45,392 bases of DNA from Ruminiclostridium sp. Its GTDB lineage: Bacteria > Bacillota > Clostridia > Oscillospirales > Ruminococcaceae. The DNA is taken from the NCBI GenBank assembly GCA_017625405.1, contig JAGALB010000018.1, forward strand, positions 1 to 45,392. Reading direction: 5' to 3'. Both the position numbers and the translations under genes were made by a program. Below, in pieces: positions 3,174 to 24,600 of this stretch; positions within the stretch are counted from its first letter, which is position 1; each line of letters begins with the position of its first letter. The notes under the pieces are model-generated. The model did not search any database. It was given only the letters and a program-made list of their open reading frames with translations, and was not told the DNA's origin.

Positions 3174-4202
3174 ATGGCTGTTTTTACCGCAGATAATAGC
3201 GCATTTTCCTACATGGGCAGAGTGGATTTCTCCGATAAATCCGCCCCCATGCTTATTTACGCAGGCAGCAGTATCCGCTGCCGTTTCAAGGGCACATACC
3301 TTAAAGCAACCCTTGACAATGTGTGCATGCATACATATACATCCTTCGGTGCTGTGATTGACGGTCTTCAGTACAAGATTGACATGAAAAACGAAAACGG
3401 TGCAGCTGAATACACCGTTGCCGAAAATCTCGCCGATGAGGAACACACCCTCATTCTTTTCAAAAGACAGGCTGCGGCACATTACTTCAGATTCATTTCC
3501 CTTGAAACAGACGGAGAAGTGCTCCCTGCAAATGAAAAATACGACCTGAAGCTTGAATACTACGGTGACAGCGTTTCCGCAGGTGAAGTTACCGAGGCTC
3601 TTTATTACGACGGACACTGCGACCCCGAAAATCACGGCAGCATCTACGACAACAGCTATTTCAGCTATACCTGGATTCTTGCCCGCAGACTTAATGCACA
3701 GTTCTATAACAACTCCCAGGGAGGTCTTGCGCTCTTTGACAAGACAGGTTATTTCTACGACAAGGACCTTACAGGTCTTGAAACCACCTACGATAAGCTC
3801 AGCTACGTGCCTTATGCACCCATGGGACTTACAGAGTGGGATTTCAGCAGCTACACTCCCGACATTGTTGTGTTTGCAATCGGTCAGAACGATGCAAACC
3901 CCGACCCCAAAGCTATTTTTGACAAGGAATATGCAGAAAAGTGGAAGGCAAAATACAAGGAAATTGTTCTGGAATTAAAGGAACGTTACGGCAATGTAAA
4001 ATTCCTGCTTATCACTACTGTTTTAATGCATGATCCCAGATGGGACGAAGTTCTTGATGAAATCAAGGAAGAGCTGGGCGATTACGTATACCGTTACCGC
4101 TTCAACCGCAACGGTGCGGCAACTCCCGGTCATCCCAGAGCTACCGAACAGACTGAAATGGCAGTTGAGCTTGAACAGTTCATCAGAGCCAATATGTTAT
4201 AA
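3174..4202 (+). CDS. CE2-like SGNH esterase (probable acetyl esterase)
   Basis: This 342-aa protein has the two-domain plan of CE2 acetyl esterases: an N-terminal beta-sandwich (about 1-120) and a C-terminal SGNH domain with YYGDSVSAGE (Ser133), VFAIGQND (Asn239) and a late GHP (His320). There is no signal peptide, so it appears cytoplasmic and would act on imported acetylated oligosaccharides. That fits the extracellular esterase encoded divergently. The ATG follows CGAGGT at a short distance. It heads a run of four close genes (3174-5105). The esterase class is a family assignment; the exact substrate is inferred. Confidence 0.8.
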   Translation: MAVFTADNSAFSYMGRVDFSDKSAPMLIYAGSSIRCRFKGTYLKATLDNVCMHTYTSFGAVIDGLQYKIDMKNENGAAEYTVAENLADEEHTLILFKRQAAAHYFRFISLETDGEVLPANEKYDLKLEYYGDSVSAGEVTEALYYDGHCDPENHGSIYDNSYFSYTWILARRLNAQFYNNSQGGLALFDKTGYFYDKDLTGLETTYDKLSYVPYAPMGLTEWDFSSYTPDIVVFAIGQNDANPDPKAIFDKEYAEKWKAKYKEIVLELKERYGNVKFLLITTVLMHDPRWDEVLDEIKEELGDYVYRYRFNRNGAATPGHPRATEQTEMAVELEQFIRANML

Positions 4203-4211
4203 GAGGTAAAA

Positions 4212-4505
4212 ATGAGTATTACTGTAAATATCTATTATACGGGCGAAAACGGCAATGCCAGGAAGTTTGCGGAAGAAATGACCGCAAGAGGCATCGTTGA
4301 CCGTATACGTGCAGAGGAAGGAAACGAAAGATATGAGTATTTCTTTCCTATGGATGACAGTGAAACGGTGTTGCTGATTGACCGTTGGAAGGACCAGCAG
4401 GCACTTGACATACATCATAAAACAGAAATGATGGCGGAAATTGCCGTGCTTCGCAAGAAGTACAAGCTCAGAATGAAGGTTGAACGCTATGTTGACGAGA
4501 ATTGA
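4212..4505 (+). CDS. ABM-type putative quinol monooxygenase
   Basis: This 97-aa protein fits the antibiotic biosynthesis monooxygenase / YgiN dimeric alpha-beta barrel fold: a central strand LIDRWKDQQALDIHHKTEM matches the family pattern of a strand, Trp, and an H-containing helix start. Such proteins act on quinols or other aromatics, often without a cofactor; the substrate here is unknown. It starts 9 bp after the esterase stop, with AGAGGT as ribosome site, and its end overlaps the next gene by 17 bp, so it is translated as part of the same message. Confidence 0.75.
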   Translation: MSITVNIYYTGENGNARKFAEEMTARGIVDRIRAEEGNERYEYFFPMDDSETVLLIDRWKDQQALDIHHKTEMMAEIAVLRKKYKLRMKVERYVDEN

Positions 4506-4722
4506 CGAGCTTCACACCACGCCTATGGGTGTAGAACGCATAAAACGCAATCTGTCCATTGATACTGACCCTGTTCAGTGGTGCAGGACTGCTATTCTAT
4601 GTCCCGACGCCGTCATTGAACGAAAAGGCAAGAACTACTACATCAAAGCAAAAGGTGCGGTAATCACTGTAAATGCGTATAGCTTCACGATAATTACTGC
4701 ACATAGAAAGGAACAATTATGA
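4489..4722 (+). CDS. DUF3781-like protein
   Basis: This 77-aa protein (MLTRIDELHTTPMG start) carries the pattern I associate with DUF3781: LHTTxxGxERIKRNL, a central WC, then RKGKNYYIK and a C-terminal ITVNAYSFTIITAH strand pair. Function is unknown. The start codon lies inside the preceding gene (17-bp overlap); a TTG at 4480 is an alternative. Its stop overlaps the next ATG by 4 bp (ATGA), so translation is coupled in both directions. Confidence 0.72.
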   Translation: MLTRIDELHTTPMGVERIKRNLSIDTDPVQWCRTAILCPDAVIERKGKNYYIKAKGAVITVNAYSFTIITAHRKEQL

Positions 4723-5105
4723 ATTTATTGCCATATTTTTGGAGTGTGCTTGACGAGGATAAAAGTCCGATTGTGATATGCGACTTAAATCATACAATTA
4801 TCTATATGAACCCCGTTGCCTGTGAGCGTTATAAAAAGCAGGGCGGTTATCTTCTGAAAGGAAAAAATCTCCTTAAATGTCATAATCAAAAATCACGTGA
4901 GATGATTGAAAAGATAATTGCATGGTTTGAAGAAAGCTACGACAACAACAGAGTTTATACTTATCACAATGATGAAGAAAATAAAGATGTATATATGGTT
5001 GCGCTCAGAGATGAAAGCGGGGATTTAATCGGCTATTATGAAAAACACGAATACCGCAGTGCGGAAAACTCAGAACGTTATGATTTCGGTAATCATAACG
5101 CCTGA
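4719..5105 (+). CDS. Single-domain PAS protein
   Basis: This 128-aa cytoplasmic protein is almost only a PAS fold: SPIVICDLNHTIIYMNPVAC opens the domain, a charged helix follows (HNQKSREMIEKIIAWF), and the last strands read VYMVALRDESGDLIGYYEKH. No output domain is attached. Stand-alone PAS proteins usually sense small ligands or redox state and pass the signal to a partner by contact. Coupling by ATGA to the DUF3781-like gene suggests that the two proteins work together. Ligand and partner are unknown. Confidence 0.75.
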   Translation: MNLLPYFWSVLDEDKSPIVICDLNHTIIYMNPVACERYKKQGGYLLKGKNLLKCHNQKSREMIEKIIAWFEESYDNNRVYTYHNDEENKDVYMVALRDESGDLIGYYEKHEYRSAENSERYDFGNHNA

Positions 5106-5110
5106 AAGAA

Positions 5111-5596
5111 TTATTCAGACTGCGTGACCCACACATCAATCTCATCAGCGGAAGGCTTTTCAAAAAAGCCTTCCGCTTTTTCTGCAAGTCCTTCATCAAC
5201 ATAATACGCTGATATTTCGCCGTTTTCCACCATTCTGTTACGCTTGTCAATGCGCTTTTTCCACAGGTTGTCAGATATATCTATATAATGAAACTCGCAG
5301 GTAATTCCGTGCTTTTTATAAAACTCACGGGCATATTCCCTTTCGGACCTCTGCCAGAAGCCCCAGTCAAATACAACATTGATCTTGTTTTCTATAATTT
5401 CCAGAGATTTTTCATACAGGTATTCTTCTGCACGTGCCACGTATTCATCGTGCATATCGCCTGTATCGTTTCTGAAAAGCGCAAGTGTTATCTCATCGAC
5501 GGAAAGCAGAACGCCACCGCATTTTTTACACATTTCTCTTGCGTATGTGCTTTTACCCGAACAGATTTTTCCGCAGGTCATTATCACCTTGGCCAT
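5111..5596 (-). CDS. P-loop kinase / AAA_33-like ATP-binding protein
   Basis: This 161-aa protein starts at ATG 5596 (AAAGGAG just upstream) rather than at an in-frame start 7 codons earlier. It has a Walker A motif GKICSGKST near the N-terminus, then LLSVDEI, and a VVFDWGFW strand typical of AAA_33 and zeta-toxin-like small-molecule or RNA kinases, followed by an Arg-rich lid (KKRIDKRN). The phosphorylated substrate is unknown; such enzymes are often antibiotic- or nucleoside-kinase-like. It converges on the PAS gene with only 5 bp between stops, and its coding sequence contains that operon's terminator. Confidence 0.72.
   Translation of the reverse strand: MAKVIMTCGKICSGKSTYAREMCKKCGGVLLSVDEITLALFRNDTGDMHDEYVARAEEYLYEKSLEIIENKINVVFDWGFWQRSEREYAREFYKKHGITCEFHYIDISDNLWKKRIDKRNRMVENGEISAYYVDEGLAEKAEGFFEKPSADEIDVWVTQSE
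5148..5181 (+). terminator. Terminator of esterase-PAS operon, inside the opposing gene
   Basis: A perfect 13-bp stem (GCGGAAGGCTTTT and AAAAGCCTTCCGC, 3-nt loop CAA) is followed by five T on the plus strand. It lies about 45 bp past the PAS stop yet inside the 3' coding part of the convergent kinase gene. Confidence 0.8.
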
Positions 5597-5663
5597 AATA
5601 TCACTCCTTTTCTGCAAATTATATCACACAGACCGCTTATTGTCAAAAAATAACGGGCAGCTA

Positions 5664-5699: not shown

Positions 5700-5905
5700 T
5701 AACAATGTAAACTACTGCGGTTCGAAAGGCTTTGCCGAGTAGACTAACAGGGAATCCGGTCAGAATCCGGAACAACCGCCATTACTGTATTTGACGAAGA
5801 AGCAGAGAATGCCATTGGGATTATTCCTGAGAAGGTTCTGCTTCACGGCATATGCCCGTCATAAGTCAGGATACCTGCCGCAGCTTTTCAGGTTAAACTT
5901 AACTT
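5700..5905 (+). promoter_or_regulatory. Cobalamin (B12) riboswitch
   Basis: Core landmarks appear in order: AACAGGGAATCCGGT near 5745, AATCCGG, CCGCCATTACTGT, GCCATTG, GAAGG, and the B12 box AGTCAGGATACCTGCC at 5864-5879. This is the conserved layout of the cobalamin aptamer, which binds adenosyl- or other cobalamins and shuts expression. It sits 17-bp-promoter-proximal in a leader of about 340 nt before the first gene. AGGTTAA at 5890-5896 can pair with TTAACCT in the terminator at 5998-6004, giving a plausible antiterminator. Confidence 0.92.
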
Positions 5906-5994
5906 GGGTGTGAAGTGTTCAGCCGATTTACTGCATAATTTTCAAGCTGTATTTTTACGGCTTTGTTTTTGTTGTGCAAATAAATCGTACTGTT

Positions 5995-6023
5995 CCCTTA
6001 ACCTTCAGGTTGAGGGATTTTTG
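5995..6023 (+). terminator. Riboswitch-controlled terminator
   Basis: CCCTTAACC (5995-6003), loop TTCA and GGTTGAGGG form a 9-bp stem with one wobble, followed by ATTTTTGTTT. Its left arm can instead pair with 5890-5896, so ligand binding would favour termination. Confidence 0.8.
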
Positions 6024-6042: not shown

Positions 6043-6237
6043 GTGATTTCTGAAGAAAAAAAGGGCTGGGCGGTAGAACTTTTGAAAAACAAGCACCACG
6101 AAACAGGAAGAATGCCCAGAAAGGACGATTTTGATTCAGTCACACTCTCCCGTATAAAGGCATATCTTGGTCCGTGGCCGAGAGCATTGGAAACGGCAGG
6201 GCTGAAAGAAGCCAGAACTGCAAAAACAAAATCATAA
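6043..6237 (+). CDS. Homing-endonuclease-associated repeat (HNR) small protein
   Basis: This 64-aa protein uses a GTG start preceded by AGGAGG at good distance; an overlapping ATG two bases earlier is blocked by an immediate stop. It matches the short repeat seen next to HNH and homing endonucleases: AVELLKNKHHETGRMPRKDDF then IKAYLGPWPRALETAGL, a small helical nucleic-acid-binding unit. No nuclease is present. It lies between the B12 riboswitch and the transport genes, 17 bp before the next start, so it is B12-regulated. Why a DNA- or RNA-binding peptide should be in this operon is unclear. Confidence 0.7.
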   Translation: MISEEKKGWAVELLKNKHHETGRMPRKDDFDSVTLSRIKAYLGPWPRALETAGLKEARTAKTKS

Positions 6238-7044: not shown

Positions 7045-8682
7045 ATGAAGAAAAGATTTTTAACAATAATCAGCACTGCTCTGTGTGCTTTTATGACTTT
7101 CGGAAGCTTTTCCGCCTGTGCACAGTCAGAAACCGTCAGCAAGGTCCGTGACCTTGTTGACGGAATTATAGATTTCAAGCTTTCACAGACAGAAAGCAGC
7201 TCGGTTCAGGAATGGATTGACGGAAAGCTCTCGGAAAATGCAGGAATGTCGGGAGAATGGTACGTATTCGGTTTAAGCAGATACGACGAATATGATTTCT
7301 CGGCGTATAATGCCGCTCTGAATGAATACCTTTCAGAAAAGGAAGTGCGTTCAGCTTCCTCAAGACTGAAATTCGCCATTGTTCTCGCCTGCACAGAAAG
7401 CGGTAACAGCTATATACAGACGGCACTTGACAGCTCCGTTGGCGGTCAGGGTGTGATGAGCTTCATCTATGGTCTGCATATGTTTGGCAACGGTTATTCA
7501 AGCAGCACAACAACTGCGGAAGAAACAATAAAAGGCTTGCTTGCTCTGAGAAAAAACGACGGCGGCTGGGCAGTCACAGGCGATACCGCTGAAACAGACG
7601 CAACTGCCATGGCGGTACAGGCGCTTGCACCTTATTATGATTCCGACAATTCCGTAAAGGAAGCTGTTGACACTGCCCTTTCCCTGCTTTCTGAAAGACA
7701 GATGGAAAACGGAGTTTTTGCAAGCTACGGAGTACCCAACCCCGAAAGCACAGGACAGGTTCTTCTGGCTCTTACAAGTATGGGTATTGACCCGCAGGCA
7801 GATGAAAGATTCATAAAAAACGGAAATACACTTATTGACGGAATTGAACTTTTCAGAAACGAAGACGGAAGCTTCCGCCATGAAATTGACGGCACATTCA
7901 ACGAAAGCGCAACCGTTCAGACCTTTTACTGTCTTGTTTCATATCTGAGATTTTCAGAAGGCAAAACACCGCTTTATGTTCTTGAAAAAGACACCGCTTC
8001 CGATACGCCTCTGGAAGAAGCGCCCTCTGTTACGGAAACGCAAGAAGCACAGCCCACTGCGGAAGAGGAACTGCCTCAGGAAGCGGAAGTCACTACGCAA
8101 AAAGGAAGCTACAAGCCTGTCGTATGTCTTATAATTGCAGGCGCAGGTGTAATTTCAATAATAGTTCTGGTAATTCTCAAAAAGGCAAAAAGGCAGAATA
8201 TAATCGCCGCCGCTGTAATAACTGCGGCAGGAATTATCTTTGTGCTTGTTACGGATTTCAGCAGTGCTGACAGCTATTACGGCAAGGTTACCGTCAAAAC
8301 AAATCCTGTCGGAACGGTGACTCTTTCCGTGCGATGTGATACGGTCGTCGGTAAAAGCGATGCTGAATATATACCTGATGACGGAATTATCGTTACAGAC
8401 GAATTTCAGATAGAACAGGGCGAAACTGCTTTTGATATTCTTGTGGAAGCTGCTAAGAAGCACAGCATCCAACTGGATTATTCGGGAGCTTCAGATACCG
8501 TTTATATTGTAGGTATAAACCACCTTTATGAATTTGATTTCGGCGATTTGTCAGGCTGGATGTATACAGTAAATGACGAAAAGCCCTCGGTAGGATGCGA
8601 CGGATATACACTTTCCGACGGCGACAGGGTGGATTTTGTCTATACCTGTGAAATGGGAAATGATTTACAATTAAAGGAGTGA
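7045..8682 (+). CDS. Transcobalamin-like toroid plus DUF4430 protein
   Basis: This 545-aa protein starts at ATG 7045, one base after the previous stop. It has an exported N-terminus (FGSFSACAQ; possibly a lipobox-like Cys), then an alpha/alpha toroid of the squalene-cyclase / prenyltransferase type (about 60-310, with repeats such as GGWAVTGDTAETDATAMAVQAL and STGQVLLALTSMGI). An acidic linker leads to two membrane segments (about 358-375 and 388-405), and a C-terminal DUF4430 domain (about 420-545: FDILVEAAKKH, LSGWMYTVND, DGDRVDFVYTCE). Toroid plus DUF4430 is the layout of eukaryotic intrinsic factor and transcobalamin. A two-pass hairpin would leave both domains outside. Role: B12 capture, inferred from riboswitch and ECF context. 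Confidence 0.82.
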   Translation: MKKRFLTIISTALCAFMTFGSFSACAQSETVSKVRDLVDGIIDFKLSQTESSSVQEWIDGKLSENAGMSGEWYVFGLSRYDEYDFSAYNAALNEYLSEKEVRSASSRLKFAIVLACTESGNSYIQTALDSSVGGQGVMSFIYGLHMFGNGYSSSTTTAEETIKGLLALRKNDGGWAVTGDTAETDATAMAVQALAPYYDSDNSVKEAVDTALSLLSERQMENGVFASYGVPNPESTGQVLLALTSMGIDPQADERFIKNGNTLIDGIELFRNEDGSFRHEIDGTFNESATVQTFYCLVSYLRFSEGKTPLYVLEKDTASDTPLEEAPSVTETQEAQPTAEEELPQEAEVTTQKGSYKPVVCLIIAGAGVISIIVLVILKKAKRQNIIAAAVITAAGIIFVLVTDFSSADSYYGKVTVKTNPVGTVTLSVRCDTVVGKSDAEYIPDDGIIVTDEFQIEQGETAFDILVEAAKKHSIQLDYSGASDTVYIVGINHLYEFDFGDLSGWMYTVNDEKPSVGCDGYTLSDGDRVDFVYTCEMGNDLQLKE

Positions 8683-8687
8683 GTAAA

Positions 8688-9560
8688 ATGGGAGCAATTG
8701 ACAGAATCAATCCTGTGGCGGCGGCAGTTTATTTTCTTGCTGCGGCAGGCATTGCCATGTTCAGTATGAATCCTGTTATACTCTCCCTTTCCCTTTCGGG
8801 TGCTGTCTGCTTTTTCTTTATTAAAAGCAGAAGCACCGGTATAAAAAGTCATCTTTATTCCTTGCTTTTGTTTATCGTAATGGCGCTTATAAACCCATTC
8901 GTAAATCATAACGGTGTAACCGTACTGTTTATAATGAATGACAACCCCATAACGCTGGAAGCGCTTATTTACGGAATTGCCGCTTCTGCCATGATAATTT
9001 CAGTGCTGTACTGGTTCAGAAGCTTTACGGAAATAATGACCAGCGACAAGCTGCTTTATATATTCGGAAGGCTGTCGCCAAAGCTTGCGCTGATACTCTC
9101 GATGGCACTGAGATTTGTACCGATGTTCGGCAATCAGCTTTATAAAACCGAGCAGGCACAGAAGGCCGCAGGACTTTATAAGGAGGATAATATTGCAGAT
9201 ACCTTCAAGGGAAAAACCGATATTTTCAGTATCATAATTACCTGGGGACTTGAAAACGGAATAATCACCGCAGACAGCATGACCGCAAGAGGTTACGGCT
9301 GTGCACGCAGGACAAGCTTTTCACTTTTCCGCTGGCGAAAGGGCGATTTTATATTCCTTGCAATAACCGCTGCGTTGTTTGCGGCTTCTCTATGGGGAAC
9401 TATGGCGGCGGATTTTGCCTATTACCCTGCCATAGCATTTTCAGAAGCGGATTATCGCACGGTCACAGGCTTCACTTCTTACGGACTTCTTGTCTTTCTC
9501 CCTTCAATTTTCGAAATAAAGGAGGCTTTACGGTGGAAATATTTAAAATCGAAAATCTGA
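8688..9560 (+). CDS. ecfT: ECF transporter transmembrane component EcfT
   Basis: This 290-aa polytopic membrane protein starts at ATG 8688 with AAAGGAG 8 bp before; a GTG at 8679 overlaps the ribosome site. It has several hydrophobic helices and the two short Ala-Arg-Gly type coupling signatures: MALRFVPMF and TADSMTARGYG, used by EcfT to contact the ATPases. It is preceded by the toroid gene (5-bp gap) and overlaps the ATPase gene by 28 bp. It acts in the membrane as the scaffold linking S component and ATPases. Confidence 0.9.
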   Translation: MGAIDRINPVAAAVYFLAAAGIAMFSMNPVILSLSLSGAVCFFFIKSRSTGIKSHLYSLLLFIVMALINPFVNHNGVTVLFIMNDNPITLEALIYGIAASAMIISVLYWFRSFTEIMTSDKLLYIFGRLSPKLALILSMALRFVPMFGNQLYKTEQAQKAAGLYKEDNIADTFKGKTDIFSIIITWGLENGIITADSMTARGYGCARRTSFSLFRWRKGDFIFLAITAALFAASLWGTMAADFAYYPAIAFSEADYRTVTGFTSYGLLVFLPSIFEIKEALRWKYLKSKI

Positions 9561-11170
9561 ATTTTACCTATCCCTTATGTAAGGAAAAGGCTGTCAGCAA
9601 TATTTCCTTTTCCGTAAACGAGGGAGAATTCATTACTATATGCGGTGCAACAGGCAGCGGTAAATCCACCCTGCTCCGCCTGCTGAAAAAGGAGCTTTCT
9701 CCCCTTGGAGAAAAATCAGGAGCTATCCTCTTCTGCGGAAAGGATATCGAACAGTGGGAGCAAAGGGATTCCGCCTCGCTGATAGGTTTTGTAATGCAAA
9801 AACCCGAGCAGCAGATAGTAACCGACAAGGTATGGCACGAGCTTGCATTCGGCCTGGAAAACCTGGGCATCCCTGCTGAAACAATTCGCAGCAGAACTGC
9901 AGAAATGGCTTCATATTTCGGTATAGAAAAATGGTTTGAAAAAAGCACCTCTGCCCTGTCAGGCGGTCAGAAGCAGCTGCTCAACTTAGCTTCGGTAATG
10001 GTTATGCAGCCCAAGGTGCTGATTCTTGACGAGCCTACCGCACAGCTTGACCCTATTGCCGCTTCGGAGTTCATTTCCACCCTGAAAAAACTCAACAGCG
10101 AGCTGGGACTTACAGTAATAATAGCCGAACACAGGCTTGAAGATGTCATTCCTGTAAGCGACAGGCTCATGGTTATGGAAAAAGGCGCTGTTACAGGTTT
10201 TGATACACCTTCGGAAGTAATTGCTGCGCTCTCGGGGGAAAGCATTGTGCTTAACGCAATGCCTGCCTCGGCTCGTCTTTTCCACAAGCTTTCAGGAAAC
10301 GGAAAATGTCCTCTTGATATACGTGAAGGCAGAGAGTTTATCCGCAACAATTACCACAACCGCATGCGCACCTTAAACAAAGAAGAATATATACATAATA
10401 AAGAAAAGGCGCTCTCCTTTTCCGAAGTTTTTTTCCGCTATGAACGCAATTCACCCGATGTACTTGACGGTCTTAATCTTGACATTTACAAAAACGAGGT
10501 TTACTGTATCCTGGGCGGAAACGGCTCAGGAAAAACCACCGCATTATGTGCGGCGGCTGACCTTATAAAAATATACAGCGGTAAAATCACCGTTTTCGGC
10601 AAGGAAATCAGAAAATACAGAAATCAGACCCTTTACAATGAATGCGTGGCAATGCTTCCTCAGGATGTGCAGACAATGTTCCTCAGAAACACCGTCGGCG
10701 AAGAACTTAAGAATGCCGCTGAAGCGGTAAAGCTGCTCCCTGTAAGCATTGAACATCTGTACGACAAGCACCCTTATGACCTTTCGGGCGGTGAACAGCA
10801 GCTTGTTGCTCTTGCAAAGGTTCTTTCAACAAAACCAAAACTTTTACTTATGGATGAGCCTGCAAAGGGACTTGATGCAAACGCAAGACTCGGACTTGTG
10901 AAAGTTATTCACAAACTGAAAGCTGAGGGAATCACAGTAGTGATTGTAACTCATGACCCGGAATTTTCCGCAATGTGCGCCGACAGATGCGGTCTTTTCT
11001 TCAGAGGAAATATAGTTTCTGAGGGCACGCCTACTGAATTCTTCTCACAGAACAGCTTCTACACTACTGCAGGAATCCGCATGACAAAGGGGTACTATGA
11101 AAATGCGGTTACTGTTGATGACATTGCCGCCTTATGCCACGAAAACGGCAGAAAGGACGGTAAAGCATGA
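9533..11170 (+). CDS. ecfA: Fused EcfA-EcfA' ATPase
   Basis: This 545-aa protein starts at GTG 9533, with AAAGGAGG just upstream; upstream in-frame codons lie inside ecfT. It contains two complete ABC ATPase halves: Walker A GATGSGKST (about 38-46) and GGNGSGKTT (about 327), signatures LSGGQ (about 141) and LSGGEQ (about 416), Walker B VLILDEP and LLLMDEPAKG. Most ECF systems use separate EcfA and EcfA' chains; here they are one polypeptide. It powers import through EcfT. It overlaps the S-component start by 4 bp (ATGA). A dedicated (group I-like) operon arrangement is suggested by the co-located S gene. Confidence 0.92.
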   Translation: MEIFKIENLNFTYPLCKEKAVSNISFSVNEGEFITICGATGSGKSTLLRLLKKELSPLGEKSGAILFCGKDIEQWEQRDSASLIGFVMQKPEQQIVTDKVWHELAFGLENLGIPAETIRSRTAEMASYFGIEKWFEKSTSALSGGQKQLLNLASVMVMQPKVLILDEPTAQLDPIAASEFISTLKKLNSELGLTVIIAEHRLEDVIPVSDRLMVMEKGAVTGFDTPSEVIAALSGESIVLNAMPASARLFHKLSGNGKCPLDIREGREFIRNNYHNRMRTLNKEEYIHNKEKALSFSEVFFRYERNSPDVLDGLNLDIYKNEVYCILGGNGSGKTTALCAAADLIKIYSGKITVFGKEIRKYRNQTLYNECVAMLPQDVQTMFLRNTVGEELKNAAEAVKLLPVSIEHLYDKHPYDLSGGEQQLVALAKVLSTKPKLLLMDEPAKGLDANARLGLVKVIHKLKAEGITVVIVTHDPEFSAMCADRCGLFFRGNIVSEGTPTEFFSQNSFYTTAGIRMTKGYYENAVTVDDIAALCHENGRKDGKA

Positions 11171-11853
11171 ACGTCATAAAAAACAGGAATATACGCAATG
11201 CCCTGAAAATCATCGTTCCCTTTGTGATTATTCCTCTGCTTGCCGCTCTTGGCAGTGCTGCAATGTTTGAAAAAAGACATATCATCATTTCCCTTGCAGC
11301 AGCTGCTTTCAGTCTGCTTCTTTTTTCCGCAGGCTTTGAAAGAAAAGCAACAGGCGGGAGGCGTATGGTTATTGTGGCAATAATGATTGCCCTTTGTATT
11401 GTGGGCAGATTCATTCCATTTTTCAAACCTGTCACCGCAATTTCGATAATTACCGCTATTTATCTCGGAGGAGAAGCGGGATTTCTCACAGGCTCTCTTG
11501 CGGCATTCCTTTCAAATTTCTATTTCGGTCAAGGTCCCTGGACAGCATTCCAGATGCTTGCGTGGGGGCTTACAGGCCTTATAGCAGGTTATCTTGCCGA
11601 ACCGCTTAAACGCCATAAATTACTGCTGCTTATTTACGGCGCTTTTTCGGGTGTTATCTATTCATTTGTCATGGACGTGTGGACAGTACTATGGTATAAC
11701 GGCGGCTTCGACGGTACGCTTTTTCTTTCAGCGGTGGTTTCGGCACTGCCCTTCACCGTTGTTTACGCAGTTTCCAATCTCGCCTTTCTGTGGCTTATGG
11801 CAAGACCTTTCGGTGAAAAGCTTGAAAGAATCAAAATCAAATACGGAGTTTAA
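11167..11853 (+). CDS. ECF transporter substrate-specific (S) component, probable cobalamin
   Basis: This 228-aa membrane protein has about six hydrophobic segments and the S-component stretch FLSNFYFGQGPWTAFQMLAWG, plus the helix-1/2 region with FIPFFKPVTA. It confers substrate choice. The B12 riboswitch at the head of the operon and the transcobalamin-like gene point to cobalamin or a precursor corrinoid; CbrT-type S components are the known analog. Substrate assignment is by context. It is the last gene before a strong terminator. Confidence 0.82.
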   Translation: MNVIKNRNIRNALKIIVPFVIIPLLAALGSAAMFEKRHIIISLAAAAFSLLLFSAGFERKATGGRRMVIVAIMIALCIVGRFIPFFKPVTAISIITAIYLGGEAGFLTGSLAAFLSNFYFGQGPWTAFQMLAWGLTGLIAGYLAEPLKRHKLLLLIYGAFSGVIYSFVMDVWTVLWYNGGFDGTLFLSAVVSALPFTVVYAVSNLAFLWLMARPFGEKLERIKIKYGV

Positions 11854-17726: not shown

Positions 17727-19466
17727 ATGAAAAAAACGATTTACATTATTGCAGGTCAATTCAAAAACGATTACATGGATAAATATGTAACCGGTGCAAT
17801 GCGAAAAGCCAACGAGCTTGATTATGATACCGTTACATTTTCCATGTCACGTTACTACCGTACAAAAACCAATTGCGAAAAAGATATTTACAAGCTTATA
17901 GATTTCAGTAAATGTGACGGCGTAATACTCAATGCCGAATCATTTTACGAACTCAAGAACCTTGCGGCGACCGTAGAGCAGAGGATTATCCTCAGCGGTA
18001 AGCCTTATACCGTAATAGGTGCTTCTGCTTATACAGACAACTATTTCCACTATCCATATTTCGACGATATGGTTACTATGGTAAATCATCTTATCGAAGA
18101 ACACGGATGCAGGAAAATCTACTGTCTCGGAGATGTACCCGACAGCCAGAGCTCACGAATCGAGGGCTTCAAGGCGGCTATGAAGGCTCATAATCTTCCC
18201 TGTCCTCAGTCTTATCTTCTTTACGGCGGCTTCTGGATAGACTGTGCCGAGCGACTTGCAAAAGATATTGCAAGAGAAATAATTGAAAAGCCTGACGCTG
18301 TTATGTGTATCAATGACCAGATAGCGAATGCACTTGTGCGTGCTTTTTACCGAAACGGAATCTCTGTACCTGAAGACGTTCTCGTTGCAGGTCTTGACGG
18401 ACACCCCTGCGCTTTCAATTATGAGCTGCCCATTACTACCGTTATGATAGACGGCGAGCATCTTGGAAAAACAGCAATGAACAGACTGCATGAAATGATG
18501 GGCAATGAGATTGATCTTGTACCTATCAAAAAGAACCGTGTGAAGGCAGGCGCAAGCTGCGGCTGCGGTGCCAGAAAGTCAAGACATATCCGCAGCCGTA
18601 TAGAAGAAGCCAACGAGTATGAAAACTATACAATGTATTACCGCAACAGCGAAATACAGGAAAAGCTGTACCATATAAACGACTATTCCGAGCTGCCTAT
18701 TATTCTGGATAACCTTACATATCTTGTACCGAATATGAGCACATTCTCAGTTTCTCTGCTGAGAGGTCAAAATCAGGCGGAGTGCCTGTTCCACAGCTCA
18801 TGGTCAAACGGTGACAGCACAGTAAAATTTGACTATCGTGATATACTGCCGCCCAACGGCAATATGGACAGCCAGGTAAGAAATACACACGTTGTGCCTA
18901 TTTCTTTCAACGAGAAATTCTACGGGTATATTACGGCAGGTTATCACCAGCCAAACGTGTACAATGAATTTCTGCAGAAATTCATACGTGATATATCAAT
19001 TGCACTGGATATATATGAACGCCACAGTGGAATAAATGCTGTTTCACTGCCTGAACTCAAGCCTGAACGTGCTACAACAAAGGCGTATCCAGGTATGAAG
19101 CATATTGATGAAGATCACGATGATATGCCCGAAAATGACAGCCATACCATATATGCTCTTAAAAACGGCACGCTGGCAAAGGTCAACTTTGATAACATAC
19201 TGTATTTTGAAGCCTATGAGAAAAAGGTAAATGTAGTACTCAAAAGCGGGGCTTACGAGGTACGCAATACCTTATCTGAGCTTGAAGAAATGATGCAGAC
19301 AAAAAACTATATGCGTGTATCAAAATCGATACTGCTGAATATTGATAAAGTTGCAGCTATAAAGCCTGAAACAGACCGGACAGTTGTAGCGGTGCTTGCA
19401 AACAAGCAGGAAGTCAGGGTTTCCAGAAGATATGCAAAAGAATTCAAAGACAGAATGAAGTTCTGA
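17727..19466 (+). CDS. PBP-LytTR one-component regulator 1
   Basis: This 579-aa cytoplasmic protein has no signal peptide. Residues 1-275 are a LacI-type periplasmic-binding fold (KKTIYIIAGQFKNDYMDKYV; HLIEEHGCRKIYCLGD; PDAVMCINDQIANALVRAF; VPEDVLVAGLDG) but the usual N-terminal LacI helix-turn-helix is missing. A GASCGCG knuckle (about 275) leads to a middle sensor-like region (290-440), and the C-terminus (about 471-579) is a LytTR DNA-binding domain (FDNILYFEAYEKKVNVVL, YMRVSKSILLNIDKV). Thus a sugar-binding sensor is joined to a LytTR output. ATG follows GGAGGG. A paralog of the same plan lies convergently at 19680. Confidence 0.85.
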   Translation: MKKTIYIIAGQFKNDYMDKYVTGAMRKANELDYDTVTFSMSRYYRTKTNCEKDIYKLIDFSKCDGVILNAESFYELKNLAATVEQRIILSGKPYTVIGASAYTDNYFHYPYFDDMVTMVNHLIEEHGCRKIYCLGDVPDSQSSRIEGFKAAMKAHNLPCPQSYLLYGGFWIDCAERLAKDIAREIIEKPDAVMCINDQIANALVRAFYRNGISVPEDVLVAGLDGHPCAFNYELPITTVMIDGEHLGKTAMNRLHEMMGNEIDLVPIKKNRVKAGASCGCGARKSRHIRSRIEEANEYENYTMYYRNSEIQEKLYHINDYSELPIILDNLTYLVPNMSTFSVSLLRGQNQAECLFHSSWSNGDSTVKFDYRDILPPNGNMDSQVRNTHVVPISFNEKFYGYITAGYHQPNVYNEFLQKFIRDISIALDIYERHSGINAVSLPELKPERATTKAYPGMKHIDEDHDDMPENDSHTIYALKNGTLAKVNFDNILYFEAYEKKVNVVLKSGAYEVRNTLSELEEMMQTKNYMRVSKSILLNIDKVAAIKPETDRTVVAVLANKQEVRVSRRYAKEFKDRMKF

Positions 19467-19679: not shown

Positions 19680-21383
19680 TCAGGTAACACCTATCCTGTC
19701 CCTGAAATCAGCAACAAATTTTCTTGAAACTTTTACAGCCGCCTTACTGCCGAGGATTACTTCAAATGTTCTGTCAGGACCGGGAGCGACTGATGTAACT
19801 TTTGAAAGATTAATCAGAGCGGATTTGGAAACACGCATAAAACCACAACCGGAAAGCATTTCTTCAAGCACAATAAGCGTTTTTCTGATTTCATAGCGTC
19901 CTGATTTCAGCACAGCAACAGTTTTGCGGCCTTCCGACTCAAACGCAAGTATGTTTTCAACAGGCACTCTGTGCATTGTACCGCTTTTAACCACAAAAAC
20001 AAAATTATGATTGGCAAAATCTTCAATCTGCCCGCTGATGAGCGCATCTGAATAATCCTGCACATAACGGTATTTTTTATTTTTGATAAGGTGAATAGCA
20101 ACTGAAAGTCTGCTAAGATACCTTTTCAGCAGGAAATTGTAAACAAGAGGATCATTATAACCCGTTACTGCATGACCATACAATACGCCGTCAAAAATCA
20201 ACGGAAGAACATGACTGTTCTCAGGAATACTGGAGTATGATAAAGAAGACGGACATATTTCGTTCGACGGAAATTCCGTAAAATTGCCTTCTCTTACAAG
20301 GTCAGTCATATAAACACACTCGGATGTGCTTTCATCTTTTTTCAGGCATACCGCAAAGAAATTCTTGTCAGGTATAAGATAATCCGTATTGGAAACAACT
20401 TTTGAGAAATCTGCCATATTATCGCAGGCATAAAGCATTTCCTCAAGGCTGCTGTTGCTGTAGTACATCTCTTCCTTGCGACGTTTTTCAAACAGCTCAA
20501 GCTTCAATCTGGTATCAATGGGCTTGTTGTTTCCGCAGCCGCAGCTCATACCTGTTATTATGCTGGTTTTGGGTCTGCTTATCAGATGTTCTTCCTCGCC
20601 TGTAATCAGCGAACACAGCTTTGAAACTGCTTTTCTGCCGATATATTCCGAATCGCACGGACAGGTAGTCACAGAAATTATATTGTTAATTTTATTTCTT
20701 GTGCCGAAGCCCGATACGATGATATCCTCAGGCACTCTTATTCCGTAGGCTGCAAGCGAGGTTATAAAAAAGGATGCAATGGTATCATCATAACACATTA
20801 CAGCATCAGGAATTTCAACATTACTGTAAGCTATATCCCTTGCCAGCTTTTCAGCACACTCCTGCCAGAAACCACCGTATATAAGATTATCTTCGGTACA
20901 GGACAGACCGTGCTTCTTCATTGAATCTATAAAACCTGCGTCACGCTCTGTTTCATACCCGGCATGACCACCGAGAAAATATACAACCTCACAGCCGTGT
21001 TCATCGATTATATGATCAGTAAGTGCTTCAAAGCTGCTGCGGTTGTTTTCGGAAAATACATTTTCGTAAATATCCGACTTTCCGATTACTACAACAGGCT
21101 TTTTACATTTTCTTTGTATATCCTTTTCTACCATCTTACCCAGTGATTTATGTGCGGCAAAGGACTTTTCAAAAAACACAACACCGTCATAACGATTGAA
21201 ATCTATAAGCGAAAAAACACTTTCCTCATTATTTGTATGAACCTCAGCCATTAACGGCATTGAAAAGACAACGGTCCTGCAATTTGTCCTGTTTGCCTGT
21301 TTTTCAATCCCGACTATGTATTCATCCCTGTAATCCTCGGTCATATCTGCCATAATTACGCATATTGTCATCTTACTGTTCAT
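19680..21383 (-). CDS. PBP-LytTR one-component regulator 2
   Basis: This 567-aa paralog of the 17727 product has the same order: LacI-type binding fold without HTH (KMTICVIMADMTEDYRDEYI; HIIDEHGCEVVYFLGG; PDAVMCYDDTIASFFITSL; VPEDIIVSGFG), a GMSCGCG knuckle, a middle region (LEEMLYACDNMADFSKV), and a C-terminal LytTR domain (VENILAFESEGRKTVAVL, GFMRVSKSALINLSKV). The start is set by CGGAGGTGACCT before ATG. It is divergent from the giant surface protein gene at 21688, the likely target. The two copies have diverged strongly, so ligands may differ. Confidence 0.85.
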   Translation of the reverse strand: MNSKMTICVIMADMTEDYRDEYIVGIEKQANRTNCRTVVFSMPLMAEVHTNNEESVFSLIDFNRYDGVVFFEKSFAAHKSLGKMVEKDIQRKCKKPVVVIGKSDIYENVFSENNRSSFEALTDHIIDEHGCEVVYFLGGHAGYETERDAGFIDSMKKHGLSCTEDNLIYGGFWQECAEKLARDIAYSNVEIPDAVMCYDDTIASFFITSLAAYGIRVPEDIIVSGFGTRNKINNIISVTTCPCDSEYIGRKAVSKLCSLITGEEEHLISRPKTSIITGMSCGCGNNKPIDTRLKLELFEKRRKEEMYYSNSSLEEMLYACDNMADFSKVVSNTDYLIPDKNFFAVCLKKDESTSECVYMTDLVREGNFTEFPSNEICPSSLSYSSIPENSHVLPLIFDGVLYGHAVTGYNDPLVYNFLLKRYLSRLSVAIHLIKNKKYRYVQDYSDALISGQIEDFANHNFVFVVKSGTMHRVPVENILAFESEGRKTVAVLKSGRYEIRKTLIVLEEMLSGCGFMRVSKSALINLSKVTSVAPGPDRTFEVILGSKAAVKVSRKFVADFRDRIGVT

Positions 21384-21621: not shown

Positions 21622-21687
21622 GAATTATTATACACTCAATACGGCATTTCATCTTGACATGCTGTACGTATGAAAGGAATTCTTTTT

Positions 21688-24600
21688 ATGAAAAGAACAA
21701 AACTTATCCTGTCCGCAATAAGCACTCTGCTTTCACTGACGCTCCTGATTGGTATGCTTCCCCATATCACCTTCACGGCATCTGCTGAAAGCGGCTCTGC
21801 CTCCTTCCCTGTCAATTACGACCCGAATGACGGTATGATAAAATACGGTCATACAGGTAAAGTCGGTATGCGTGCTGAAAATGACGTAAACAACCACTAC
21901 GAAAAAAACGATAAGGTTGTAAACTTCCCTGAAGATCTCATAAATCTCAAGGACGAAAACGGTCAGCTTAAATTCCCCGATTACAATGCTGCCGATGCTT
22001 ATTACGACTATTCGGATATGTTCAATGAAGCACTTTCCCTTGCTCGTGCAAAGGACAACTGCGACGTATTCGTACAGCCGGGTGTATACTACTTTACAAA
22101 ATCAGTCTACCTCTGGGGTTATACAAGAATCAATGCCGTTGCGGGGCAGACTGCATTTGTCATCAAGCCCAACTTTCAGGACAAAGACGGTAATCCCGTT
22201 GATGTAAACGGCTTTTTCACAAATGCCGACCTCAGCTCCACATACTCCTGGTACTTTTCAAGCATAAACGATATTGCTTTTGTTGTCGAAGGTACTCACA
22301 ACGCATTCAAGCCTACCAACACCGCACAGAACATCATAGCAAATCTCTGTACCGACGGTATTCAGGCTGTTGATAAATTCAACCTTTTCTATCGTGTACG
22401 TATCAAATACGGCGCTGTCAATAATATCGGCGCTTCAGGCTTTGAATCCTTCATGCGCTGGTCATATGTTGATATGCTCACAAGGATTCAGGATGTTACG
22501 ATAGGTCCTACAAAGTATGTTTATTACGGTGTTGAAACCAACGACGCCTTCTTCTATGACAACCACTATTACGGCGGTTATTATACCGACTCGGACGGCT
22601 ATTCACAGCTGCCTTTATTCCAGATAAACTTCAGCATGGGCACAACCATGTTTACAAATTCCTATATAGGTAATTATTATTTCTCAAGAAGCGGAGCTTC
22701 GGCATGGTGTCCCCACACATCCTACTCGAATCTGACTTTTGAACGTGTATATAACTTTGTTATGGATACAACCGTTGACTCCTCTTCCTCTGTAAGCGGA
22801 TGCTTATTCAAGGACGGCGCATACAACGACATTGCCGCTTATTTTGAAAGTCAGGGTATACCTGCCTTTGATTACTGGGACCGTACCTGGAGCTATGAAG
22901 AAAACAGATTCATATATAACAGCAAAGGATATATAATCCGTGACACGATTACAGGTAACAAGCTTGATTCCGCAAACCATGCTCACGGCCAGTACATAAC
23001 TCTTATAGAGCTTCACAACGGTATCAGCTTCACCCAGAATAAAATCGAGTGCGATTCTCTTGACTGGACTATTCTTGTAAGACTCACCGACTCTGAATGG
23101 ACTTCAAGATACACAGCAAGAAGAAGTGCTGACAACATCACCTTTGCCGATAACGCATTCAAGATAAACGAATGGGTAAAAGAGAACCTTTTCATTGACG
23201 ACTGGAAAGGCGGAAAGCCCTTATCCGACGACTGGTATGACAAGACTATAATTGTATGGGGCGAAAGAGGCTGGAACAACTCTGACGGAACTCCTGCCAT
23301 GGGCTGGGTAGGTGCTGACGGACCCGAAGACGTAAGCTGGATGGAAGGCTATGTCTATGTATCCCCGTATTACAGCAGATACCTTGATTTCACAGCCTTC
23401 AGCAGCCCAACAGCTCCCACAGCAGGTTATGCTGCACTCGGAGCAGTGGGCGCAGACGAGCAGGCGCTGGAAAATATGGGTGTGGAAGACAGATATTATT
23501 ATGACCTGAATTCTACCTCTATTGAAAAAGTTTATTTTGAAAGAGATTTCGGCGGTTTCAGCTGGAATACAGGCTCAAACCATCAGAAGCTTCAGGAAGC
23601 CTTTGACTATGTAGCAACTCATGACGCTATACTCTATATTGAAAACGGAACATTCTACACAAGCGAGCCAATTGTTCTCCGTGGCGGTGCTACATACCGT
23701 GTAGTTTTTGACGGTACAATCAGAAGCCATAAAACGGCGGAAATGGACGGTACGGGTATGTTTGTAATGAGTGCTGACGACAACGCTCCTATAAACGGTT
23801 ATTTCATCGGTACAGACCTGTATCTTCAGAACTGCAATACCAGTGGTTTCTTTAATGTAAATACCGATAATTTCTATTTTAATATCGGAAGTGTACAGCG
23901 TGGTGTAGGTTGCTTCACAAACTGCAAGCTGAACAACACCATTATCCATGAAGGTCAGATTCAGTACTGCGATTACGGATTCTTCTACAAGACTATTACA
24001 AACAATACCCTTGTAAAGAATGTATACGGTACAGCAAGTACATGGATAGAAGGTGCAGACGGCATTTCTCCCGGCGATAAGAACTATCGTTATTTTATTT
24101 CCGATTCCGACTTTGCCCATTCCACATGGAGAGGCTGCTGGCTTGAATTCGGTCAGTTCTCAAACGGCAGAACACTTACAGGCGCAGGCAACAGCGTTTA
24201 CCGTGGCAACCTTATTGACTACACTTATAATTACAGCTTTGGCAGAAACGACGTTTTCTGCGGCAATACCCTTACAAGAGCAAGTTACAGCAATATCACA
24301 AACCACATGGTGAACTCTAACTTCCCTATTGACCTGCCCGATATACTTACAAACAAGCCTATGGTCATGTTCCATGTAAGCGATGGTCTTCGTCTTATAG
24401 GAAATATGGATATCGGCACTATGAACGCAATGACTCATTTCGTAGAGTTCGACAGCCCCGGCATAAGCTACACCGACCAGAACGGAAACACCGTAAAATC
24501 CATTTCCGACACACGTATTCTCGGCAACGGTGTTACAACTGTATATCACGGCGATTATAAGGTTGCACAGCCTTATATCCCGTGGGGAAAATCAGATGAT

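Follow-up and report, generated by a model that had tools for sequence, protein, structure and literature searches.

The 45,392-nt stretch of DNA analysed here (the window) carries an operon with which a Gram-positive, gut-type bacterium probably scavenges corrinoids. The system would be repressed by B12, and in it a surface receptor would feed an ECF importer. This reading builds on features that were computed directly, namely the gene content, a riboswitch with its terminator, the topology of the candidate receptor, the recurrence of the operon, the kinship of its S component to CbrT, and a B12-dependent enzyme in a genome without matches to CbiC and CbiD. The candidate receptor (P0001) combines a toroid with a C-terminal SLBB (DUF4430) domain. 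The idea of B12 scavenging by bacterial proteins with these two domains is not new: in the accessible text of Burroughs et al. 2007, such proteins, encoded in CbiO/CbiQ operons, are proposed to clasp B12 (PMC1796856). Since B12 scavenging by such proteins was already foreseen there, the operon of the window represents a case of the predicted kind.

Gene content and control of the operon

All features of the operon are located on the forward strand. A cobalamin riboswitch aptamer (RF00174, 83.2 bits compared to a gathering score of 31.5, E 3.7e-19) at 5701..5896 is followed, ahead of the first gene, by an intrinsic terminator at 5994..6017 composed of a 10-pair stem and a T tail (-15.5 kcal/mol, z -3.9 against shuffles). 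An aptamer followed by a terminator is the arrangement of a switch that turns transcription off, and the terminator most likely serves as the expression platform, which would be off when B12 is plentiful. Control by a cobalamin riboswitch, as claimed in an earlier sequence-based note on this DNA (the original prediction), was thus found, but P0001 is not the first gene behind it. Two reading frames are located in between, a 64-aa ORF (6043..6237, GTG start) and the gene of the 262-aa protein P2. The 64-aa ORF, located between the terminator and the operon, encodes a homing-endonuclease-associated repeat (HNH_repeat, PF18780, E 8.1e-8, 32.9 bits against 26) and is perhaps a passenger. The P0001 gene (7045..8682; ATG at 7045, TGA at 8680-8682, 545 aa) starts one base past the stop of its upstream neighbour P2.

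Downstream, P0001 is adjoined by a full ECF importer, in agreement with the original prediction. An EcfT membrane coupling subunit of the CbiQ family (8688..9560, PF02361 E 4.1e-9), for which the start after AAGGAG at 8674-8679 was selected, is followed by a fused EcfA1-EcfA2 ECF ATPase (9533..11170) with a GTG start after AGGAGG, two stretches matching PF00005, and a TIGR04520 score of 341.6 bits against 315. The third gene encodes a CbrT-like S component (11167..11853, PF12822 E 2.6e-10). Its best PDB sequence match is 6fnp (E 6.9e-12), and a profile of 28 S-component sequences matches 6fnp with 3.3e-16, the next match being at 9.1e-4. 6FNP is the ECF-CbrT complex of Lactobacillus delbrueckii (PMC5997447). 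According to the accessible text of that study, CbrT binds cobalamin and cobinamide, mediates the ATP-driven uptake of both, shows nanomolar substrate binding, and transports with the ECF module alone in liposomes and in E. coli, for which a triple mutant lacking btuF, btuC, and metE was employed (PMC5997447), so that a receptor is not strictly needed. Judged from this relationship, the substrate of the S component is probably cobalamin; no other single observation points as strongly to the putative cargo as the CbrT kinship, which is new relative to the original prediction. The two systems agree in their S components, which are homologous, and in a module of EcfT and two ATPases. In the window, however, a single polypeptide contains both ATPases, and the N-terminus of the S component is longer by approximately 55 residues. 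Furthermore, no extracellular receptor is described for ECF-CbrT in the accessible text (PMC5997447), while here a toroid-SLBB protein is encoded in the operon.

A methionine synthase of the MetH type is encoded in the window's own genome (2.1 Mb, 64 contigs, 99.93% complete), and CbiC and CbiD, searched in this genome, gave no match (0/1 genome each). The presence of MetH together with the unmatched CbiC and CbiD suggests that the host needs corrinoids and seems unable to build the corrin ring. The only other cobalamin riboswitch match in the genome is located ahead of genes encoding a substrate-binding protein, BtuC-like, BtuD-like, and CbiK-like proteins, and a CobA fragment; a CobQ fragment precedes this second riboswitch set, the NCBIfam matches of which are under the curated cut-offs. 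Due to this second, BtuFCD-like candidate importer, the ECF system need not be the sole entry route.

In locus L074 (G000:C5), two small membrane-anchored proteins (697-1170 and 5052-5597), NEAT-like by eye, flank a riboswitch-led set of genes for a substrate-binding protein and for BtuC-like, BtuD-like, and CbiK-like proteins. Neither Pfam (E<=0.01) nor NCBIfam (E<=0.001) gives a match for the two proteins; together with the importer set they possibly form another surface corrinoid relay. The same locus encodes a CbiK-type cobaltochelatase (4099-5004), which may act outside the membrane because of its lipoprotein-like N-terminus, although CbiC and CbiD are unmatched in this genome.

Architecture of the toroid-SLBB protein and of P2

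P0001 is composed of an N-terminal hydrophobic signal, the toroid (approximately residues 40-330, 7162..8034), a variable linker, two membrane helices (residues 359-377, 8119..8175, and residues 385-403, 8197..8253), and the C-terminal SLBB (DUF4430) beta-grasp domain (residues 412-540, 8278..8664), the range of which was extended from the PF14478 core by family alignments. PF14478 is matched on residues 459-534 (E 1.6e-17, 64.2 bits, cut-off 23.8) and in 65/65 aligned relatives (E<=0.01). Two SLBB cysteines, C431 and C518, are conserved in 64/65 and 57/65 relatives, respectively, and could form a disulfide. The membrane helices were predicted with a simple scan of hydropathy, a method that cannot distinguish a signal peptide from an anchor. 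Both are present in all 65 aligned relatives, and the loop between them contains on average 3.9 K/R and 0.02 D/E. Because of this positive loop, the toroid and the SLBB domain should both face outward according to the positive-inside rule. The two membrane passes and the outward orientation had been claimed before and agree with these observations.

The toroid comprises about 290 residues with six inner-helix-like motifs. On its own, the P0001 toroid gives weak matches only (SQHop_cyclase_C, E 0.0049), but at the family level the assignment is clear: SQHop_cyclase_C is found in 55 and Prenyltrans in 41 of the 65 members (E<=0.01), and a profile of 33 diverse toroid members matches a solved SQHop_cyclase_C-domain protein in the PDB with 5.6e-20 and squalene-hopene cyclase with 5.2e-15. 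A toroid joined to a C-terminal DUF4430 domain, the core of the original prediction, was thereby recovered. Superposition of the six motifs places a conservation peak at W72, K109, S139, M189, Q238, and Q292 (mean of 4.68 bits, toroid mean 2.16), which was equalled by 2/20000 random anchor sets over the same 22 offsets. Since the anchors were placed by eye, this is a consistency test; the pattern fits a putative alpha6/alpha6 barrel having a conserved rim or cavity. The conserved residues assigned to the putative rim are E71, W72, K109, S139, D185, Q192, N232, E234, Q238, H279, and Q292.

Mammalian transcobalamin, intrinsic factor, and haptocorrin are soluble carriers without membrane helices, unlike P0001, and have in common with it the order of toroid and beta-grasp domain. 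DUF4430 also occurs at the C-terminus of animal transcobalamins, as stated in the accessible text of PMC4350170. At the sequence level, the earlier claim that P0001 contains the same two parts as transcobalamin and intrinsic factor is weak. PF01122, the eukaryotic cobalamin-binding toroid family of the mammalian carriers, stays below its cut-off of 25 in P0001 (10.8 bits, E 0.24) and is absent from the 25 families most matched by the 65 members (E<=5). Neither transcobalamin nor intrinsic factor was found among the PDB sequences with the toroid and SLBB profiles at E<=10, and PDB searches with P0001, P0002, and the profiles of the whole family, P2, SLBB, and toroid retrieved no transcobalamin.

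Relatives in which toroid and SLBB domain are encoded separately offer an explanation for the double membrane pass. Among 40 family loci, the two domains are fused in 15 and encoded by separate ORFs in 17; one further locus (L059) is a weak separate case, and seven contain the SLBB domain alone. Except for L054 and L065, the toroid proteins of the 17 separate loci possess a C-terminal helix or wall motif (15 loci), and except for L064, a hydrophobic segment or lipobox is located ahead of the SLBB domain (16 loci). Helix 1 of P0001, the C-terminal anchor of the toroid half, is the counterpart of the C-terminal anchor of the separate toroid proteins; helix 2 anchors the SLBB half at its N-terminus and is equivalent to the hydrophobic segment at the N-terminus of the separate SLBB proteins. 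Within a single genus, one genome has the two domains on separate genes (L060) and another has them fused (L063), and in L060 the toroid and SLBB genes overlap by ATGA at 9405, within the inter-helix loop. Since the separate forms are self-anchored and the split in L060 falls into the loop, P0001 has the appearance of two membrane-anchored proteins that were fused at their cytoplasmic ends, which would account for the two passes. The recurrence of fused and separate forms beside the same transporter argues for a cooperation of toroid, SLBB domain, and S component. In case of L064, a single 626-aa ORF (3374-5254) comprises an S-component-like membrane part and an SLBB domain, a natural fusion of putative importer and receptor parts. 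Considering separate and fused forms together, the mean column identity is higher for the SLBB domain (48%) than for the toroid (36%).

The toroid protein itself bears an extra SLBB domain in the separate systems L048, L050, L055, and L057. Giant toroid proteins of approximately 1280-2000 aa beside a small SLBB protein occur in L048, L051, L055, L057, and L070, with wall-anchor motifs in three of the five.

P2 (6255..7043), a secreted protein of 262 aa that is absent from the original prediction, has a C-terminal anchor of the NPTTG type (NCBIfam NPXTG anchor, 26.7 bits, cut-off 23.5). Its N-terminal domain is possibly a divergent SLBB domain with a DxDxDG-type loop, and the second domain appears Ig-like or carboxypeptidase-regulatory-like. 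The loop is present in 52/59 aligned members of the P2 family; an xPxTG motif near the end occurs in just 21/59, which counts against our main reading. P2 is not recognised as DUF4430 by Pfam. With hhalign, the N-terminal domain from a close alignment was aligned to the SLBB domain over 66 columns in sensible register (Prob 21%, E 0.001), and from a diverse alignment over 64 columns with Prob 1.7% and E 0.03, compared to 0.9% for a toroid control and 1.2% for a reversed-SLBB control. P2 belongs to the proposed scavenging system, in which it would take its part at the cell surface.

Conservation of the operon in relatives

Matches to P0001 were obtained in 71/197 sampled genomes of the same family, and family-profile matches in 118/398 genomes sampled across the phylum, where those among the matches listed are largely single-domain. 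A search of viral contigs retrieved no relatives. The loci named in the following are the best 80 of 517 confirmed relatives in a collection of species genomes, many of which are metagenome-assembled; as the best-scoring ones were selected, the conservation of the operon is measured on the closest kin. These 80 loci include many from Ruminococcus, Lachnospiraceae, Oscillospiraceae, and other Clostridia of herbivore guts, among them the culturable Ruminococcus flavefaciens, which has the operon in MA2007 and Y1 (L083, L087). P2, toroid plus SLBB, EcfT, EcfA, and S component are all present in 60 of the best 80 of 517 loci, and P2, EcfT, EcfA, and S component were counted singly in 70, 72, 68, and 66, respectively. 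The exact order P2, toroid plus SLBB, EcfT, EcfA, S component was observed in 48 of these 80 loci and the alternative order EcfT, EcfA, S component, P2, toroid plus SLBB in six, and several of the gene losses are explained by contig ends. No ECF genes are located near the toroid-SLBB gene in L093 and L110, nor downstream of it in L138, in which the upstream part is cut off; these loci count against the main reading.

A B12-class riboswitch is located upstream on the same strand in 44 of the best 80 of 517 loci, 37 of these 44 reaching the gathering score, and in 43 of the 69 loci for which 1 kb or more of upstream DNA is available. The gene set thus recurs behind B12 riboswitches in many genomes, in support of the original prediction. 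At the thresholds used, none was found upstream in the remaining 26 of the 69 assessable loci, which again counts against the main reading. For the 80 loci, entire genomes were searched for RF00174, and the matches were then placed by coordinates. Of 42 loci with an upstream placement, 40 were kept, 33 with scores reaching the gathering score and seven below it; the RF00174 assignments at L078 and L139 were dropped as coordinate coincidences, since direct Rfam scans list none there. A direct scan of 10 of the 42 assignments re-identified seven, whereas L078 and L139 were absent and L134, which is below the gathering score, was unlisted; the other 32 rest on coordinates. AdoCbl-II aptamers, sought in 27 of the 80 loci, were found in L078, L079, L083, and L086. 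The B12-box motif occurs in 12/42 of the assigned stretches compared to 142/800 random 200-mers and is uninformative.

A same-strand aptamer of the B12 class, located no more than approximately 5 kb upstream, was detected in 23 of the 40 loci of the family set. This set consists of 40 of the 71 matching genomes (197 sampled), taken from the upper part of the match list, and it overlaps with the 80-locus set: L131 and L038 are seemingly one contig with the same riboswitch position, and others may be shared as well. A second cobalamin riboswitch occurs inside the operon, between the toroid plus SLBB gene and EcfT, in L105 (10713-10845, by Rfam directly) and L114 (10648-10780, by coordinates).

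Proposed mechanism and alternative explanations

The operon shares several properties with the clade described in the accessible text of Burroughs et al. 2007, i.e., secreted toroid plus SLBB proteins with a signal peptide, CbiO- and CbiQ-like genes, hosts usually without key B12 synthesis enzymes, and predicted B12 scavenging (PMC1796856). Toroid-SLBB fusion, signal peptide, and CbiO/CbiQ-like genes are found in the window as well, and key synthesis enzymes, represented by CbiC and CbiD, are unmatched in the host genome. According to the accessible text, the operons of that clade often encode a second, paralogous surface SLBB protein (PMC1796856); here, P2 is a conserved surface protein, possibly of the SLBB type, present in 70 of the best 80 of 517 loci. 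The word riboswitch (0 occurrences), a CbrT-type S component, the double membrane pass, and the separate-gene forms are absent from the accessible text (PMC1796856). Among the matches listed in the open-access literature, we recognised no later experimental work on bacterial toroid plus SLBB proteins. BtuG and BtuH of Bacteroides provide an analogy only: they likewise capture B12 at the surface ahead of an importer in gut bacteria, and, as far as the accessible texts state, BtuG takes B12 from intrinsic factor (PMC6143338) and is a beta-propeller (PMC6977713). BtuG is located on the Gram-negative outer membrane, whereas the system of the window is Gram-positive.

We infer corrinoid binding by toroid and SLBB domain, closure of the clamp, hand-over to the S component, and the part of P2 as follows. 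At low B12, transcription would pass the riboswitch terminator. The toroid-TM-TM-SLBB protein would be placed on the membrane with both domains outside, and P2, at the wall or the outer membrane face, would collect corrinoid outside the membrane together with it. Toroid and SLBB domain could then close on one corrinoid in transcobalamin fashion before handing it over to the CbrT-like S component; turnover of the S component by the ECF module, at the expense of ATP, would drive the corrinoid into the cell. That P0001 may work like a transcobalamin is a good hypothesis; that it is a transcobalamin is not supported, as PF01122 is not reached and the profiles miss the human binders.

An alternative is that the ECF system alone imports B12 and that the toroid-SLBB protein represents a structural or regulatory outer partner that does not bind corrinoids, e.g., by docking P2 or guarding the S component. 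The activity of CbrT with its ECF module only, in liposomes and E. coli, according to the accessible text (PMC5997447), is in line with this, as are the failure of the toroid and SLBB profiles to reach transcobalamin and the better conservation of the SLBB domain, the fusion of which to an S component in L064 could mean docking. However, the toroid has equivalent positions that are conserved together, which would be expected if they lined a cavity, and Burroughs et al. 2007, in the accessible text, link this clade to the B12-contacting beta-grasp domain of transcobalamin (PMC1796856). We regard a non-binding partner as unlikely. An even more improbable explanation, which we reject, is a prenyltransferase or squalene-cyclase-like enzyme whose gene is located beside a B12 importer by chance. 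Squalene and terpene cyclases are indeed the closest named families and structures of the toroid, but the N-terminal domain of transcobalamin is an alpha/alpha toroid as well (accessible text of PMC1796856), P0001 has a signal peptide, and among the best 80 of 517 loci the gene is accompanied by ECF genes, S component, and P2 in 60 and by a riboswitch in 44.

The gut habitat has many cobamides on offer, and it is conceivable, though less likely than not, that the system imports a corrinoid other than cobalamin, or a precursor such as cobinamide, pseudo-cobamides, or cobyric acid. The retention of a CbiK-like gene and of fragments of CobQ and CobA, with CbiC and CbiD unmatched, fits a late-stage salvage, and cobinamide is also taken up by CbrT, as stated in the accessible text of PMC5997447. 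The observations made here fit either kind of cargo. The mechanism would remain unchanged, and such a cargo refines the surface-receptor reading rather than opposing it.

In one B12-switched unit, the operon couples a CbrT-type importer to a surface protein built of the two domain kinds that clasp B12 in the human carriers. If this protein binds B12, it would be a direct bacterial counterpart of intrinsic factor, possibly related to the ancestor that was proposed in 2007, and a competitor for the B12 of host and neighbours. The occurrence of fused and separate gene forms opens the putative clamp to direct testing with small soluble pieces. It is tempting to speculate about an exchange of lids, although we consider it doubtful: one toroid would hold the corrinoid and swap an outer beta-grasp lid located at the wall or outer surface (P2 or its SLBB counterpart) for an inner, membrane-tied lid, so that B12 would travel from the cell surface to the CbrT-type S component without ever being released. 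In that case, the transcobalamin and intrinsic factor of animals would represent freed, soluble copies of a bacterial relay, reduced to the toroid plus one lid.

Elsewhere in the window, an ORF of 1802 aa without Pfam match at E<=1e-4 is located at 21670-27078, and paralogous regulators composed of a LacI-type periplasmic-binding domain and a LytTR DNA-binding domain are encoded at 17727-19466 on the forward and at 19680-21383 on the reverse strand.
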